The notes under the pieces were generated by a model. That model worked only from the letters and a program-made list of their open reading frames with translations, ran no database searches and had not been told where the DNA came from. From the NCBI RefSeq assembly GCF_007993045.1, contig NZ_VOOR01000030.1, positions 1 through 64,000 of the forward strand: a stretch of 64,000 nt of DNA, written 5' to 3'. Both the position numbers and the translations under genes were made by a program. The stretch is from Phaeodactylibacter luteus (GTDB taxonomy: Bacteria > Bacteroidota > Bacteroidia > Chitinophagales > Saprospiraceae). Below are positions 972-60,620 of the stretch, piece by piece. Within the stretch, counting starts at the first letter, position 1, and each line of letters begins with the position of its first letter.

Positions 972-1290
972 GGGCACCAACCGTAATGCCGCAAACTTCA
1001 GTGCCATGATGATGCCGGCCTAGCGCTGCGGAGGGGTATAAGAGCTTCTTGGGGTTTTACCCTTTGGGCTGCTCTTGCCAAATTTTGTCCTGCTCTTCGT
1101 TGTTCTTCGGTCACGTAGCTAAGGCTATGTTCCCTCAGAACGCCTCGATCAGGGCAAAATTTGGCTACGTTCGCTCCAAAAGCAAAATCCCAAAAAGCTC
1201 TAAGCCCGTTAGGGCCGAGCGGGCAGCGAGCCCCGGAGCATAGCGGCACCTGCCGTTGGGCAGGGGCAGGCCCCATCTTGAGGCGAGGGC
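972..1290 (-). repeat. Family-A hairpin repeat, copy A1 (interrupted)
   Basis: The left end GGGCACCAACCGTAATGCCG resembles the family terminal inverted repeat. The conserved core follows (gcctagcgctgcg, then gggccgagcggg, cagcgagccccgg and agcatagcggcacctgcc). The right end is not recognisable. The core is split after ggggtataa by a 159-bp foreign insert (B1) and resumes with taagcccgttagggcc. Other copies read straight through this point. A 14-base stretch, CTTGAGGCGAGGGC, just past the core recurs inverted next to copy A3 near 18782-18797. Confidence 0.7.
1042..1200. mobile_element. Family-B MITE-like element B1, nested in A1
   Basis: This is a 159-bp insert with long imperfect inverted ends. 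The left end reads GAGCTTCTTGGGGTTTTACC. The right end, on the other strand, reads GAGCTTTTTGGGATTTTGCT. The similarity continues inward about 50 bp on each side (GCCAAATTTTG in both arms). It is flanked by TAA on both sides (1039-1041 and 1201-1203), which fits a 3-bp target-site duplication. Uninterrupted copies of the host repeat have a single TAAGCCCG at this site. It contains no coding capacity for a transposase. Confidence 0.75.
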
Positions 1291-5524: not shown

Positions 5525-5646
5525 GGGGGCCTGCCCCTGCCGCAAGGACGGGGCTCGCCCAACGGCAGGTGCCGCTATGCTCCGGGGCTCGCTGCCCGCT
5601 CGGCCCTACCGGGCTTGCCACCCCTGCGCAGCGCTAGGCCGGCACC
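5525..5646 (+). repeat. Family-A hairpin repeat, copy A2 (core only)
   Basis: Only the central core is present: ggggcctgcccctgccg, then gccgctatgctccggggctc, gctcggccctaccgggc and cgcagcgctaggcc. The second hairpin has a long variant loop (caaggacggggctcgcccaa). Neither terminal inverted repeat is recognisable, so this is a truncated copy. It lies in the gap between two convergent genes. Confidence 0.8.
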
Positions 5647-7948: not shown

Positions 7949-9847
7949 CTAATACAACACCCGGAACCAAATGGTAGGCTCGATCAGCTTGAGCTCCTCG
8001 AGCAGCTCATCGTCATACGCCCGGTCTACATCTGTGATGACATAACCAATCTGCTCGTTGGTCTTCAGGTACTGACTGACGATGTTGATGTTGTGCTTGG
8101 CCAAAATCTGATTGATGCCCGCCAGCACATTCGGCACATTGCTGTGGATGTGGAGCAGGCGGTGGGCGCTCTGCACCGGCGGCAGCTGTACGTTCGGGAA
8201 GTTGACACTGCCCGTGGTGCTTCCGGTGTTGATATACTGTATGATCTTCCGTGGCACAAACTCGCCGATGTTCTCCTGAGCCTCTGCTGTAGAACCGCCG
8301 ATGTGAGGGGTCAGGATGGTGTTGGGCAGCCCCATTAGGGCAGACTCGAAGGGCTCGTTGTTGCTCTTGGGCTCTTTGGGGAATACGTCCACCGCACAAC
8401 CTTTCAGCTTTCCGGAAAGGATGGCTTCGCGCAGGGCGTCCACATCTACGACTTTGCCCCGGGCGAGGTTGATGAATATCGCCCCGTCCTTCATCATCGC
8501 AAATTCACGTGCACCGAAGATGCCGTTGTTCTCCGGCCGGCCGTCCATGTGCATAGAGAGGATATCCACCGTGCCCAACAGCTCCTCCAAGGTCTCGCAT
8601 TTGGTAGCATTGCCAAGGGCCAGCTTGTCCTCAAGGTCATAGTAGTACACATCCAGCCCTACGGCCTCGGCCAGCACAGAGAGCTGCGAGCCAATGTTGC
8701 CATAGCCCATGATGCCCAGCTTTTTGCCCCTCACTTCATGTGCGCCAGTGGCCGACTTTTCCCACTTGCCATTGTGCATAGCCCGGGCTTTATCCGGCAA
8801 GTTGCGCACCAGCATGATGATTTCAGCAATGGCCAGCTCTACCACCGAGCGCGTATTGCTGTAAGGCGCGTTGAAAACGGCTACTCCATGCCGGCTGCAC
8901 GCTTCCAGGTCAATTTGGTTGGTGCCAATACAAAAGGCCCCGATATTGATCAGGCGCTTGGCGCTCTGAATGACTTTTTCGGTCACCTTTGTCTTCGAGC
9001 GGATGCCTAATATGTTGACGTCAACAATTTTTTCGCACAGCTCTTCTTCAGTCAAGGCAGTGGTCAGGTACTCAACCTGATAGCCTTCCTTCTCGAAGAT
9101 GTCGACCGCCTGCGGGTGTACACCCTCCAGCAAAAGCACTTTGATGCGGTTTTTCGGATAAGATAGAGATCTGCTCATTTTCAATTCGTATAAGATTTCA
9201 TCGAGATTGGGGGCGATATGGTCGGCTTCCGCCTTCACTTTTTCGCGCTCAACATTCTCTGTGAAAAGGTAAAACTTGTTAGCATAGCCCGCTTTGCGGA
9301 TTTCAAGGTCATTGGCGCCATCGCCGATCACGTACACGTCGCCTTTCAGGTCCAGCTGCTTGATGACTTCCGATTTGCCCCCACTGCGGGAGAGGGGGTT
9401 GTCCCGGTTGAAGCCACAGACATAGCCCTCCTCATCGTACAGGAACTCATTGGCAATGACGCGCTCGGGGTCCAGCCCATAGTGGGCCACCACAGGGCGG
9501 ATAAAATCTGTGAAGCCATTGGAAACGATGTAGGTCGCTGCGCTTAGGGATGCGAAATACTCCTGATTGCGCAGAAAGGAACGGGAGATCTGCCCCTTCA
9601 GCACCTCGCCAAGCTTTTGGATATCATCGCGGTGGGCGCGCAGCAGCTCCAGGCGCTGTTCTAGGGAAGCCCGGAAATCGAGCGTGCCATCCATGCCCAA
9701 ATCGGTAATCTCCTGAATGCGCCTCAAGACCTGCTCCCGGCTGCTATCGCCTTCCAGCACAATCTCTGCCAGCACGTCCAAGGCTTCCACCCGGGTAAAT
9801 GTGCTGTCAAAATCAATGATAAGATTCAGCGTATTGCTCATGCGCAC
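7949..9847 (-). CDS. serA: SerB-like phosphatase fused to phosphoglycerate dehydrogenase
   Basis: This 632-residue protein joins two serine-pathway enzymes. Residues 1-225 are a HAD phosphatase of the phosphoserine phosphatase type: nucleophile motif IDFDST (D12, D14), motif II Ser109 (VSNGF), Lys158 (GGK) and GDGANDLE at 175-182. Residues 230-555 are a D-3-phosphoglycerate dehydrogenase with NAD motif GYGNIG (381-386) and a catalytic triad that looks intact: R463 (NLARG), E492 (PKEP) and H515 (TPHIGG). Residues 560-632 form an ACT domain, the usual serine-feedback site. It would catalyse the first and last steps of serine synthesis in the cytoplasm. Phosphoserine aminotransferase is not in this window. 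The start could be Met1 or Met3. Confidence 0.93.
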   Translation of the reverse strand: MRMSNTLNLIIDFDSTFTRVEALDVLAEIVLEGDSSREQVLRRIQEITDLGMDGTLDFRASLEQRLELLRAHRDDIQKLGEVLKGQISRSFLRNQEYFASLSAATYIVSNGFTDFIRPVVAHYGLDPERVIANEFLYDEEGYVCGFNRDNPLSRSGGKSEVIKQLDLKGDVYVIGDGANDLEIRKAGYANKFYLFTENVEREKVKAEADHIAPNLDEILYELKMSRSLSYPKNRIKVLLLEGVHPQAVDIFEKEGYQVEYLTTALTEEELCEKIVDVNILGIRSKTKVTEKVIQSAKRLINIGAFCIGTNQIDLEACSRHGVAVFNAPYSNTRSVVELAIAEIIMLVRNLPDKARAMHNGKWEKSATGAHEVRGKKLGIMGYGNIGSQLSVLAEAVGLDVYYYDLEDKLALGNATKCETLEELLGTVDILSMHMDGRPENNGIFGAREFAMMKDGAIFINLARGKVVDVDALREAILSGKLKGCAVDVFPKEPKSNNEPFESALMGLPNTILTPHIGGSTAEAQENIGEFVPRKIIQYINTGSTTGSVNFPNVQLPPVQSAHRLLHIHSNVPNVLAGINQILAKHNINIVSQYLKTNEQIGYVITDVDRAYDDELLEELKLIEPTIWFRVLY

Positions 9848-18574: not shown

Positions 18575-18715
18575 AAGCGCCAAAATGCAGCAGGCCTTAG
18601 CGCTATGATGGCAACGGCCTAGCGCTGCGAAGGGGTTTAAGCCCGATAGGGCCGAGCGGACAGCGAGCCCCGAAGCATAGCGGCACCTGCCGTTAGGCAG
18701 GGGCAGGCCCCATGC
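18575..18715 (-). repeat. Family-A hairpin repeat, copy A3
   Basis: The left end (aagcgccaaaatgcagcagg) is a decayed terminal repeat starting 2-3 nt after the lysE-type stop codon. The core is intact: ggcctagcgctgcgaagggg, aagcccgatagggccgagcg, agcggcacctgcc and ggcaggggcaggcccc. The expected right terminal repeat is absent. Instead, at 18755-18797, a GGGCGTTACAAGCC-like end and the 14-mer GCCCTCGCCTCAAG occur in the opposite orientation, suggesting a rearranged second copy. Confidence 0.75.
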
Positions 18716-20415: not shown

Positions 20416-20600
20416 GGGCGCCAGCCAGATTGCCGTTTTTTTTTGGAGGGGCCTGCCCCTGCCCGATGGCAGGTGCCGCTATGCTACGGGGCTCGCTGTC
20501 CGCTCGGCCCTAACGGGCTCTTAAACCCCTTCGCAGCGCTAGGCCGATGCCAGCCTAAAGCCCGGATAGCATAAATGCCTGCCTGAAGTGAAGGCTGGGC
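20416..20600 (+). repeat. Family-A hairpin repeat, copy A4
   Basis: The left terminal repeat reads GGGCGCCAGCCAGATTGCCG and is followed by a long T run. The core is present (ggggcctgcccctgcc, ggcaggtgccgctatgctac, gctcggccctaacgggc, cgcagcgctaggccgatgcc). The right end is decayed, and no flanking duplication is visible. It fills the convergent gap between the Usp gene and the ComEA-like gene, leaving no other feature in the 317 bp. Confidence 0.8.
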
Positions 20601-38282: not shown

Positions 38283-38398
38283 ATAATACTGGGATTTCGC
38301 CCTTCGGGCTGTATTTGCCAACGCCCATCCTGCCGTCATTTATGGTGGGCAAGCTGTTCCGCACAAAGTTCAAATAGGTTCGCTCCAAAAGTAGATCC
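38282..38398. mobile_element. Decayed family-B element B3 at the response-regulator stop
   Basis: The left end, gatactgggatttcgccctt with one small indel, aligns with the B1 left end over about 40 bp (27 of 40 identical, including gggctg and tttgccaa). The right end shares gttcgctccaaaag with B1. TTA borders it on both sides (38279-38281 and 38399-38401). Removing the element and one TTA restores ttt taa ccc, so the gene would end at the same codon. The right inverted end is shortened. Confidence 0.55.
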
Positions 38399-38403
38399 TT
38401 AAC

Positions 38404-38583
38404 CCGGACATAACCCAGATTTTCGTTTTTGGGGCCTGCTCCTGCCAGCGGGCAGGAGCCGCTATGCTACGGGGCTCGCTATCCGCTCGGCCCTATCGGG
38501 CTTGCCACCCCTTCGCAGCGCTAGTCCGATCCCATCCTATAGCCGATACAGCCTGAACGCTTTCGGCATTTCACATTACGCCC
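38404..38583 (+). repeat. Family-A hairpin repeat, copy A5
   Basis: The left end (cggacataacccagattttc) and right end (cacattacgcccc) are decayed terminal repeats. The core is complete. Its second hairpin is the perfect form gctcctgcc / ggcaggagc, where other copies have one mismatch. It starts 5 nt after B3 and ends 10 nt before the kinase stop codon. No matching 8-bp flanks are visible. Together, B3 and A5 account for nearly all of the 311-bp convergent gap. Confidence 0.8.
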
Positions 38584-43714: not shown

Positions 43715-43912
43715 GAATACACTTGGATCTCGTTATTATTGTAAATCAATGTTTTATAAACCTGGCTTCCTCACTAGATTTCCATTTAGCCCGCTAAGCT
43801 CAAATTTAGTGACTCCGCCAGGGCCCTGCCGGCCACCCCGGCACTACAGGTGGGTATAAATCCTTCATTTTCGGATAAAAGCTACTCCCAACAAGCGCTA
43901 AAAATTAACCTT

Positions 43913-45518: not shown

Positions 45519-45744
45519 AGGTGTAAAACAAAATGCCGCAGGCTTTCAAGCTTTTCGGGCTATAGCCCCAGGCATTGGCCTAGCGCTGCGCAGGGGTGGC
45601 CGAAGGCCAGACCCGACGCCTGTAGGGCGAGGGGCCGAGCGGACAGCGAGCCCCGTAGCATAGCGGCACCTGCCCTTCTGGCAGGGGCAGGCCCCTCTTC
45701 AGAGTAGGGGGCAGGCCTAAAGACGGCAATCTGATTTTCAACCC
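45519..45744 (-). repeat. Family-A hairpin repeat, copy A6, entering the VWA gene
   Basis: The left end reads AGGTGTAAAACAAAATGCCG and the right end, on the other strand, GGGTTGAAAATCAGATTGCC. Core and three hairpins are present, including the longer third-hairpin variant ccgacgcctgtagggcg. The right end overlaps the last two codons of the VWA gene (GGT TGA), so the element supplies the Gly codon and the stop. No matching 8-bp flanks are visible. Confidence 0.8.
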
Positions 45745-48675: not shown

Positions 48676-48883
48676 TTTAGGTTTATTTGCGCCCTTTTTA
48701 GGGGGCCAGGTTATATTGCCGTTGCAGTTTGCGGGCAGAGGTTTCAGCCGCTTTGCCGCTGGCATAGCTAAGTTATTAGTCAATAGGGCTGTTTCCGTAC
48801 TGTCCCGAAAACCACCGCATACTTCAAGCTGAAATCCGCTACGGAGTACACGGAGTTTCACCCGAGAACCACAGTATTCTCCA

Positions 48884-49105
48884 AGGCACAAACCTCATTG
48901 TCGTTTTTCCACTGCCCCCTCCGTAAGGATAGGGGCCTGCCCCTGCCAGCGGGCAGGTGCCGCTATGCTCCGGGGCTCGCTATCCGCTCGGCCCCTCGCC
49001 CTACAGGCGTCGGGTCTGGCCTTCGGCCACCCCTGCGCAGCGCTAGGCCAATGCCAGGCTAACGCCCGGAAAGCATAACCACCTGCGACATTTTGGTTCA
49101 CGCCC
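48884..49105 (+). repeat. Family-A hairpin repeat, copy A7 (8-bp duplication)
   Basis: This is a complete 222-bp element. The left end is AGGCACAAACCTCATTGTCG and the right end, on the other strand, GGGCGTGAACCAAAATGTCG. Three hairpins are present: cccctccgtaaggatagggg, then gcccctgcc/ggcaggtgc, then the long third form with cgccctacaggcg and ggccttcggcc. ATTCTCCA occurs immediately on both sides (48876-48883 and 49106-49113), a perfect 8-bp direct repeat. It lies between the NtrC-type gene and the Hpt gene. Confidence 0.9.
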
Positions 49106-49140
49106 ATTCTCCAAGCTTAAGCAGATTGTGCCCGACAGCT

Positions 49141-57844: not shown

Positions 57845-58061
57845 GGGGCGTAAACCCAAATGGCGCAGGGCTTTATGCTCTTGGGCTTTACAGCATGGCA
57901 TCGGCCTAGCGCTGCGAAGGGGGGTAAGCCCGATAGGGCCGAGCGGATAGCGAGCCCCGCAGCATAGCGGCACCTGCCCGCAAGCCCCGTCCTTGCGGCA
58001 GGGGCAGGCCCCTATCCTTATGGAGGGGGCAAGCAAAAAAACGACAATTTGGTTTGCGCCC
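57845..58061 (-). repeat. Family-A hairpin repeat, copy A8 (8-bp duplication, 7/8)
   Basis: This is a complete 217-bp element. The left end is GGGGCGTAAACCCAAATGGC and the right end, on the other strand, GGGCGCAAACCAAATTGTCG. The three hairpins are present, with a long second loop (ccgcaaggacggggcttgcgg on the other strand, split here as ccgcaagg and ggcttgcgg). AGCTAAAG precedes it (57837-57844) and AGCTAGAG follows it (58062-58069), seven of eight identical. Together with the terminator at 57767-57800 it accounts for the gene-free stretch 57731-58138. Confidence 0.88.
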
Positions 58062-59479: not shown

Positions 59480-60391
59480 ATGGACCAGAAGAAAGGATTG
59501 ATCGCCGCTGTTGTTGTGCTTGCACTTTTACTCCTTGGGGTAGGCATATGGGGCTTTCAGCAAAATAATGCCCGCAAAGACCTAGAAGGTGTACGCGACA
59601 AACTTGAGGGTACCGTAGAGGAGCTAGAAGTACTGCGCGAGGATCTCATCGGTGAAGTGGATAGTTTGCAGGGAGAGTACAATATGCTGGCAGAGCAGAA
59701 CGGCGAGCTGCAGGGCAACCTGGCCCAGGCTCAGGAGGCTATCGCCAAGAAGGAGGCGGCTATCCGCAACATCAAAGCCAGTACATCTTCCGAAATCAAT
59801 AGCCTGAGGGCAGAAATACAAGAGCTCATCGCGCTGAAGGACGAGCTGCAGGGCAACATACAAGCGCTTGTCGCCGAAAATGAATCCCTCAAGGAAGCCA
59901 TGGGCATCCTGGAAGCAGACCTTACTGCTTCTAAAGAGGAAGTGGAGCAGCTCAACAACATCCGCCGTACCATAGAAGAGGAAAACGAACGGCTGACCTT
60001 GGCCAACTTCAAGGCTACGGCATTCCAGGTGGAGCTGGAGCGCGGCAATGAGAAAGTCACTTCCAAAGCCCGCCGGGTGCGCACCATCCGCGTGAGCTTC
60101 GACCTGACCAATGTGCCGGATAACTTGCAGGGGCTGCGGACACTCTACCTGACCATCAACGACGACAAGGGGACGCCCATCGCTGCGGCCAACCCGGTCA
60201 AAGCCCAGACTGTGGTAAACAACCAGAAAATGGACATCATTGCTGTAAAAGCCAAAGATGTCGACATTTCGGCCAATCAGCGGCTTTCCTTTGTGTATGA
60301 TCTTGAGGACAAACTGGACCCGGGCTATTACCGCGTTTCCATCTTTACAGAAATTGGAATGCTGGGCTCTTCCAGCCTGCGCTTGCGCTAA
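59480..60391 (+). CDS. Membrane-anchored coiled-coil protein
   Basis: The 303 residues have one N-terminal membrane anchor (about 7-27). A long heptad-rich coiled coil follows (about 30-175; LEGTVEELEVLREDLIGEVDSLQGEY, LVAENESLKEAMGILEADL). The C-terminal beta domain (about 178-303; VRTIRVSFDLTNVPDNLQGLRTLYLTINDDKG) is found in a Bacteroidota-specific family of unknown function. The protein would project into the periplasm. Repeat A9 begins 9 nt after the stop codon, with its left target duplication starting at the first base after the stop. Confidence 0.85.
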   Translation: MDQKKGLIAAVVVLALLLLGVGIWGFQQNNARKDLEGVRDKLEGTVEELEVLREDLIGEVDSLQGEYNMLAEQNGELQGNLAQAQEAIAKKEAAIRNIKASTSSEINSLRAEIQELIALKDELQGNIQALVAENESLKEAMGILEADLTASKEEVEQLNNIRRTIEEENERLTLANFKATAFQVELERGNEKVTSKARRVRTIRVSFDLTNVPDNLQGLRTLYLTINDDKGTPIAAANPVKAQTVVNNQKMDIIAVKAKDVDISANQRLSFVYDLEDKLDPGYYRVSIFTEIGMLGSSSLRLR

Positions 60392-60399
60392 AGGTTAAC

Positions 60400-60577
60400 G
60401 GGCGAAATCCAGATTATCGTTTTGGGGCCTGCCCCTGCCAGCGGGCAGGTGCCGCTATGCTCCGGGGCTCGCTGTCCGCTCGGCCCTATCGGGCTTACAC
60501 CCCTTCGCAGCGCTAGGCCAATGCCAGGCTGTAAAGCCCGAAAAGCATAACCGCCTGCGATATTTTGGTTTGCGCCC
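60400..60577 (+). repeat. Family-A hairpin repeat, copy A9 (reference copy, perfect duplication)
   Basis: This 178-bp element has ends GGGCGAAATCCAGATTATCG and, on the other strand, GGGCGCAAACCAAAATATCG. AGGTTAAC occurs immediately on both sides (60392-60399 and 60578-60585), a perfect 8-bp direct repeat. The core is typical: ggggcctgcccctgcc, ggcaggtgccgctatgctcc, gctcggccctatcgggc and cgcagcgctaggccaatgcc. It contains no coding capacity for a transposase. With the following terminator it accounts for the gap 60392-60724. Confidence 0.93.
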
Positions 60578-60620
60578 AGGTTAACCGCGCTTTTTGCTTT
60601 TGGCTTTGCCAAAAGTATTC

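Follow-up and report, generated by a model that had tools for sequence, protein, structure and literature searches.

A MITE is normally worn-out transposon DNA. The window analyzed here, a stretch of 64,000 nucleotides of the Phaeodactylibacter luteus draft genome, holds a family of short repeats, A1 to A9, that an earlier note had described as a MITE-like family dependent on a DDE transposase acting in trans, the parent of which could not be named. The locus of A9 raises two questions: which transposase moved the element, and what is the DNA that lies between its ends.

The A9 family in the window and in the P. luteus genome

A covariance model of the repeat interior, hereafter the core, finds nine copies in the window, the number given earlier (Table 1). 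Both features ascribed to A9 are present, namely inverted ends (left, GGGCGAAATCC; right, as its reverse complement, GGGCGCAAACC) and a perfect 8-bp duplication, AGGTTAAC, on both sides, the left copy of which begins one base past the stop codon of an upstream ORF (59480-60391). A7 does lie between two copies of ATTCTCCA (48876-48883 and 49106-49113), and the 7/8 pair attributed to A8, CTCTAGCT/CTTTAGCT, is recovered if one extra C is allowed past the right end, the ungapped register giving 2/8. The core of A1 is probably split by another small repeat.

Table 1. Features of the A9 family in the window.
Feature	Position	Strand	Remark
A1 core	1142-1273	-	covariance model; weak match, 37 bits
A2 core, without recognizable ends	5527-5639	+	covariance model
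A3 core, without recognizable ends	18617-18710	-	covariance model
A4 core	20449-20544	+	covariance model
A5 core	38432-38526	+	covariance model
A6 core	45578-45694	-	101.3 bits, top covariance-model match in the P. luteus genome
A7, 222 bp	48884-49105	+	core 48933-49048
A8, 216 bp	57846-58061	-	core 57904-58011
A9 left target duplication, AGGTTAAC	60392-60399	.	
A9, MITE copy, 178 bp	60400-60577	+	
A9 left terminal inverted repeat, GGGCGAAATCCAGATTATCG	60400-60419	+	family consensus GGGCGCAAACCAGATTGTCG
A9 short T run, left end to core	60420-60423	+	
A9 folded core	60425-60518	+	covariance-model match, 63.4 bits
A9 right terminal inverted repeat	60558-60577	-	reverse complement GGGCGCAAACCAAAATATCG
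A9 right target duplication, AGGTTAAC	60578-60585	.	

In 61 stretches of the genome (1,263,425 of 6,011,527 bases, or 21% of the 6.01-Mb draft), BLASTN gave 176 places related to A9 and the covariance model 155 matches, which extrapolate to approximately 840 and 740 copies genome-wide, respectively. The consensus of 45 full copies is 202 bp long, with inverted ends of approximately 20 bp. Both ends were recognized at 80 of the 176 places, although one element accounts for two of these 80 rows, and the ends assigned at low scores are probably wrong in some cases; at the other 96 places, one end or both could not be recognized. Among the 80 two-ended copies, the flanking 8-bp repeat was perfect in 26 and matched at 7 positions or more in 40, whereas a proportion of only 0.0009 reached 7/8 when left and right flanks were re-paired among different copies, which excludes chance. 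Duplication lengths of 4 to 7, 9 and 10 yielded 0 or 1 perfect match each.

To look for empty sites, the flanks (60 bp) of 31 copies whose duplication is 7/8 or 8/8 were joined over one 8-bp copy. For five of them (C1:20053, C247:7077, C269:38151, C280:42392 and C280:121082), the joined sequence aligns across intact copies of a different interspersed repeat, with no gap at the junction; these empty sites are paralogous, their displayed alignments having 76 to 84% identity. For the remaining 26, no spanning match was obtained in the sampled P. luteus sequence. A member of this second repeat family, whose uninterrupted copies provide the five empty sites, is found in the window at 43729-43888. 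Among 59 relatives, five of them of the same genus, no match to the family was obtained at an E value of 1e-5 except in two genomes of other genera.

The earlier proposal of transposition was to be judged by the 8-bp repeats of full copies genome-wide and by empty alleles in sister strains. On the first count it holds, as half of the two-ended copies in 1.263 Mb have the duplication; on the second, the 5 of 31 empty sites are paralogous ones, not sister-strain alleles. The elements are short and non-coding, have terminal inverted repeats, duplicate 8 bp and no other length, have empty sites, and share their ends with autonomous elements described below. This confirmed that the A9 family are MITEs, and the same features bear out movement in trans by a DDE transposase.

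The copies are largely extragenic. By a simple home-made, approximate gene caller, 2 of 132 P. luteus copies lie in called genes, though 84% of the bases are coding, and intergenic copies occupy 67 tandem, 35 convergent and 27 divergent gaps, compared with 451, 139 and 150 among all gaps. Some MITE copies contain small, CTAG-flanked inverted-repeat elements, giving rise to forms of 350 to 560 bp (G000:C291:919, C280:140121, C2:115859 and C280:65810). A pair of sequences in the window, 1155-1182 and 38364-38391 (D9), resembles part of such a nested element.

Candidate parents of the MITE

The pattern of the A9 ends was searched for in 248 genomes of the family Saprospiraceae and was present in 26, the reversed control giving 0 among the matches listed. 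Also among the matches listed, three genomes have pairs of ends at the distance expected of an IS, 1294 bp (G216), 1383 bp (G248) and 1247 bp (G233) apart. The transposases encoded by these elements all have their best NCBIfam match in the ISKra4 family (NF033572), with 182.5, 171.6 and 169.8 bits (E values of 1.5e-53, 2.9e-50 and 1e-49), below the curated cut-off of 205. The score of the G233 protein stayed the same when ORF A was joined to ORF B, and a Pfam search with two of the three proteins gave no match. By eye, a run of eight A (CGTCGAAAAAAAA) links two ORF frames by a -1 shift in the elements of G216 and G233; for that of G248, another frame change is required. One of five full-length IS copies is flanked by a duplication (G233, L254; 10 identical bases on both sides), and the other four are not.

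According to published work, elements of the ISKra4-related superfamily have inverted repeats of 18 to 39 bp and duplicate 8 or 9 bp, the ISMich2 group has two ORFs with a -1 frameshift, and IS256 is a cousin within the same Mutator-like superfamily (PMC3942029). The MITE resembles the ISKra4-related IS (p-MULT 4, comprising the ISAzba1, ISMich2 and ISKra4 groups) in its ends and 8-bp duplications, but it codes for nothing, and its same-ended relatives score below the ISKra4 cut-off. The two-ORF organization of the ISMich2 group fits the G216 and G233 elements but not that of G248. Judged from these sequences, the parent, which the earlier note had declared unnameable, can be named as a probable ISKra4-related element, most like the ISMich2 group.

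Transposases of the IS1595, IS256, IS6 and ISL3 families also duplicate approximately 8 bp. The first three had been offered as examples earlier, and an ISL3-type gene is present in P. luteus; the longer of its two matches (L238, G000:C35:86306-87010) has an open frame of 413 aa. IS1595 falls away as parent with 0 matches to PF12762 in the P. luteus genome, and ISL3 with the lack of GGGCG-type ends in the flanks of L238; IS256 and IS6 were set aside because the same-ended full-length elements, in three genomes, code for another, ISKra4-related transposase. We regard it as scarcely credible that any of these four families moved the MITE.

P. luteus itself has a single piece that matches NF033572 (C247:9062-9349; 72.1 bits, E value of 1.5e-19). 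It corresponds to the C-terminal part alone, is 72% identical to the G216 protein over 101 aa, ends in a perfect end (GGGCGCAAACCAAATTGTCG) at 8981 and is interrupted at 9332 by a MITE end. The profile search of the draft revealed no intact ISKra4-related parent besides this fragment, and among long elements with ends and an 8-bp repeat in the 1.263 Mb, the credible pairs were 529 to 556 bp apart, the remainder looking like chance. With a stated completeness of 99.85%, the assembly is split into 301 contigs, and an intact copy may possibly lie in a gap. The IS982-derived MITE reported from a Cardinium endosymbiont is a similarly short, gene-less, IS-derived element spread in a Bacteroidota genome (PMC9769881); in contrast, no intact parent was found here, and the interior is structured, is not IS sequence and exists without the ends.

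NF033572 matched 10 of 17 genomes tested, 3 of them above the cut-off. It had no match in the two Saprospira grandis genomes, G002, G003, G004, G020 and G027, and no transposase was found in G002, G004, G020 or G027, which have same-ended sequences. In another genome (G018), an ISKra4-type gene (C207:427-1425, L253) lies within identical ends, GTGTGTATAACAAATTGCAC, 1309 bp apart, which resemble the ends of the G027 MITEs and differ from the A9-type ends.

Fold and covariation of the core

The fold of the core was read by eye from 18 sequences, 16 of S. grandis strain Lewin and 2 of the window (alignment A1), and then tested. It comprises an outer stem, an inner stem and three hairpins, with an imperfect helix between. 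Tests were run on alignment A1, on A3 (130 Lewin copies), on A2 (150 of the 155 P. luteus matches) and on A5 (39 sequences, mostly of other genera), alignments A2 to A6 being fitted to the covariance model. In alignments A1, A3, A2 and A5, respectively, 88.5, 87.8, 85.1 and 86.9% of the cells at model pairs are paired, compared with at most 56.1% for slid partners. The covariation scores of 0.320, 0.474, 0.051 and 0.460 exceed the shuffled scores of 0.119, 0.140, 0.018 and 0.135, and none of 500 shuffles reached the observed value; in alignment A3 slid partners gave at most 0.154, and 29 of 32 pairs are doubly changed. Doubly changed cells likewise outnumber those of shuffles (72 versus 25.1, 878 versus 313.4, 74 versus 12.1 and 246 versus 73.1).

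Counting against the fold, further pair types were not above shuffles in two of the four alignments (A1, 412/500; A3, 497/500), some model pairs are mostly unpaired (e.g., 110 of 129 in alignment A3), and alignments A2 to A6 are model-fitted. When 71 S. grandis copies were simply aligned with MAFFT, RNAalifold returned a poor fold (-16.6, with a covariance term of 3.1). The outer stem occurs as GGCCT/AGGCC, GGCCC/GGGCC, GGCTG/CAGCC, GGCATC/GATGC or GGCGT/ACGC, and the inner stem as GGGG/CCCC, GCAG/CTGC, AGGG/CCCT, GCCG/CGGC or GTGG/CCAC. The fold is preserved across 16 genera, with letters that differ in nearly every stem.

In Rfam 15, the window and 60 kb of S. grandis sequence (124 kb) gave 0 matches above the gathering score. 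The core shares with the structured bacterial RNA classes a multi-helix consensus with covariation, but differs in the absence of an Rfam match in these 124 kb, in its very high copy number and in its few G-T pairs. No described family was found to which the core could be assigned, and a survey of the open-access literature by title or abstract start brought up no paper describing the MITE or the core.

Separability of ends and core

The same type of end encloses unrelated interiors in MITEs of G004 (same genus; 409 bp, L167), G020 (160 bp, L178) and G027 (157 bp, L156), which are flanked by duplications of 8, 9 and 8 bp, respectively, and the core is present in MITEs of 173 to 174 bp with 8-bp duplications in G018. 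This indicates that ends and core are separable.

The decay of the two parts was compared in 132 P. luteus copies that had complete flanks and a core aligned over 80 bases or more. One or the other arm exceeded the 99% null in 106 (left, 93; right, 74), and in 17 neither exceeded the 95% null. The identity of the core (approximately 97 bp) was 90.7% in the best quintile of arm score and still 86.8% in the lowest, where the arms are at background. Thus, the core is conserved beyond the ends. Its identity does fall weakly with arm decay (rank correlation rho of 0.27, p = 0.002, n = 132), which counts against the view that the core outlasts the ends. As these copies had been found by way of their cores, the search was also run in reverse from the arms. 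A left arm of at least 19/25 was found at 95 places, where the core scores 30 or more in 94 cases, 20 to 30 in none and below 20 in one; for a right arm of 24/36, 90 places gave 88, 1 and 1. Half-decayed cores are thus nearly absent in both arm-based searches. The end-less P. luteus copies look like old MITEs, because arm traces are visible by eye in many of them. What lies between the ends is an older element in its own right, conserved in structure, which the earlier note had not seen.

The core in Saprospira grandis and other genomes

Exact matches to a 22-mer of the core occur in the S. grandis strains Lewin and DSM 2844 (at least 17 stretches), and with the covariance model, 400 kb of Lewin yielded 130 copies and 400 kb of DSM 2844 yielded 123, which extrapolates to approximately 1,400 genome-wide, in addition to plasmid copies. 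On three Saprospira plasmids that are close relatives of one another, 63 copies were found, approximately 20 in the 50 kb analyzed of each. The approximate gene caller places 4 of 81 Lewin copies in called genes, though 78% of the bases are coding. End-like sequence at 16/20 or more was found beside 0 of 131 Lewin cores, and mean scores equaled the null. Both flanks of 55 of the 131 Lewin copies map to DSM 2844, where the element is present in all 55; no empty site was seen among them, which argues that the mapped copies are old.

The core model matches at least 18 of 149 genomes of the family (at least 16 of 112 genera) and at least 1 of 296 genomes across the phylum, that one being P. luteus itself. 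The family set includes Saprospira, since G087 has the same coordinates as Lewin, and NCBI assigns Saprospira to the Saprospiraceae. These counts are lower bounds, as strict filters were applied and scoring was limited to 24 (family) or the best 12 (phylum) candidates per genome; in the phylum scan, where the filters were stricter, distant forms may be missed. A link to phages was dropped, as one IMG/VR contig with a 20-base core motif (L382, 10668-10687) has no model match. In several Saprospira loci (L272 to L291, L383 and L385), a small insert that starts with GTTACTCCC and ends with TTGTTGTCG lies inside core loops, and in one case it stands in for a portion of the core.

Block exchange among the copies

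At 54 orthologous sites of Lewin and DSM 2844, 1430 pair cells are the same, 169 are doubly changed and still paired, 10 are singly changed and paired, 80 have lost or gained the pair and 3 are unpaired in both. The 53 plasmid pairs gave 1489 same, 119 doubly changed, 10 singly changed and 52 lost or gained; in two further mapped plasmid comparisons, both to one QB6 site, the model had no match there. Paired stems thus show 12 to 17 double changes per single change between strains, i.e., concerted stem replacement. Median identity between Lewin and DSM 2844 is 84% for the elements and 93.6% for their flanks; the flanks of plasmid orthologs are 95.2% identical at the median over 300 bp. In the purQ-purH gap, the hairpin GCCAGC-AAA-GCTGGC of plasmid WH stands opposite GCCAGC-TTT-GCTGGC of QB6, its reverse complement. 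Thirteen of 130 Lewin interiors are identical to another, 8 of them in unlike flanks and 5 with a shared flank, and for 51 of 130 S. grandis interiors a second copy with 95% identity or more exists. As double changes dominate, a hairpin is flipped and identical interiors sit in unlike flanks, whole stem-loop blocks are exchanged among copies, likely through conversion between them.

Such exchange could homogenize the cores without selection, which counts against a selected fold. The A9 family might then be an ordinary MITE, with the core a functionless, passive filler whose copies resemble each other owing to recent amplification and gene conversion, as the visible exchange and the many alike or identical interiors would suggest. 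However, copies whose ends are at background still have the core, the fold persists across 16 genera despite changed letters in nearly every stem, and S. grandis has approximately 130 cores per 400 kb without such ends or an ISKra4-type gene. We consider a passive filler unlikely. Selection on the fold, beyond gene conversion alone, would then hold the core. The three related Saprospira plasmids make selection, gene conversion and template switching directly testable as sources of the compensatory pairs.

A proposed origin of the A9 family

Taken together, the best explanation, and one that we hold with good confidence, is a MITE family moved by an ISKra4-related transposase and carrying a separate, older Saprospiraceae core selected for its fold. 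According to this model, a transposase of the ISKra4-related, Mutator-like type would have recognized the ends of approximately 20 bp in trans, and the element would have inserted at random-looking extragenic places with duplication of 8 bp of target. The autonomous parent would by now be reduced, in the searched assembly, to the C-terminal fragment with its perfect end. The cargo would be an older Saprospiraceae element with a core of approximately 95 to 130 bp, in which an outer stem encloses several inner stems and hairpins, and it probably did not arise within the transposon ends but was captured by them. Selection would keep the fold, which block exchange among copies would refresh, and the ends, of use for jumping alone, would decay. 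In this family, then, the transposon part wears out while the cargo stays, a shape conserved across a bacterial family and with no Rfam match in the 124 kb scanned.

Possible modes of action of the core

G-T and A-C cells were counted at the model pairs, leaving out four weak ones. G-T cells amount to 43/3180 in P. luteus, 16/3542 in Lewin, 17/3384 in DSM 2844 and 6/960 in alignment A5 (0.5 to 1.4%), and A-C cells to 11, 5, 13 and 6. A small control, eight tRNAs from the same sequences, had 9 G-U pairs in 169 (5.3%). The scarcity of G-T pairs and the nearly equal A-C counts in two sets hint at folded DNA rather than RNA. A hairpin or cruciform, serving as a putative extragenic site for a host protein, may be the working form. 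Tentatively, and at somewhat below an even chance, the core could represent an extragenic element of a new class, active as folded DNA, in which Watson-Crick stems rather than letters are selected and stem-loop blocks are traded, and which has filled Saprospiraceae genomes and been captured at least once by transposon ends. If so, the MITE family of the window is a vehicle for the core. This reading is weakened because G-T exceeds A-C approximately fourfold in P. luteus and threefold in Lewin, and by the block exchange.

The core may, just as tentatively, work as RNA, i.e., as a transcribed 3'-end or intergenic structure involved in stability, termination or regulation. Covariation as strong as this usually marks a structured RNA, the excess of G-T over A-C in two of four sets leans to RNA of the given strand, and in S. 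grandis a stop codon is found within 60 bp of 39 copies, compared with 17 for a start codon (approximate gene caller), several copies following terminator-like T runs (seen, uncounted). Yet G-T pairs are rare next to the tRNA control, no Rfam family matches the window or the 60 kb of S. grandis, and copies in tandem gaps show no sense bias (26 in the same and 41 in the opposite orientation in P. luteus; 22 and 28 in S. grandis, by the approximate gene caller).

As extragenic, hairpin-rich repeats in many hundreds of copies, the cores also recall the REP/BIME palindromes associated with RAYT genes, from which they differ in being larger, multi-helix and covarying, and in lacking a consistent link to a Y1 gene. 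Mobilization of the core by a Y1 (RAYT) transposase could draw on the one Y1 gene in P. luteus and in each S. grandis genome, and on the cores that lie on either side of the P. luteus gene within a 3.3-kb locus. The link is not supported, as the core-bearing G018 has no Y1 match, while other core genomes have one or more; moreover, the Lewin Y1 locus is devoid of a core, that of DSM 2844 has one more than 1 kb away, and these Y1 genes are adjoined by other palindromic repeats. We consider this origin very improbable. The P. luteus locus L349 (1392-1950; G000:C236:103147-103491) contains a Y1/RAYT-type transposase gene with palindromic repeats of its own.
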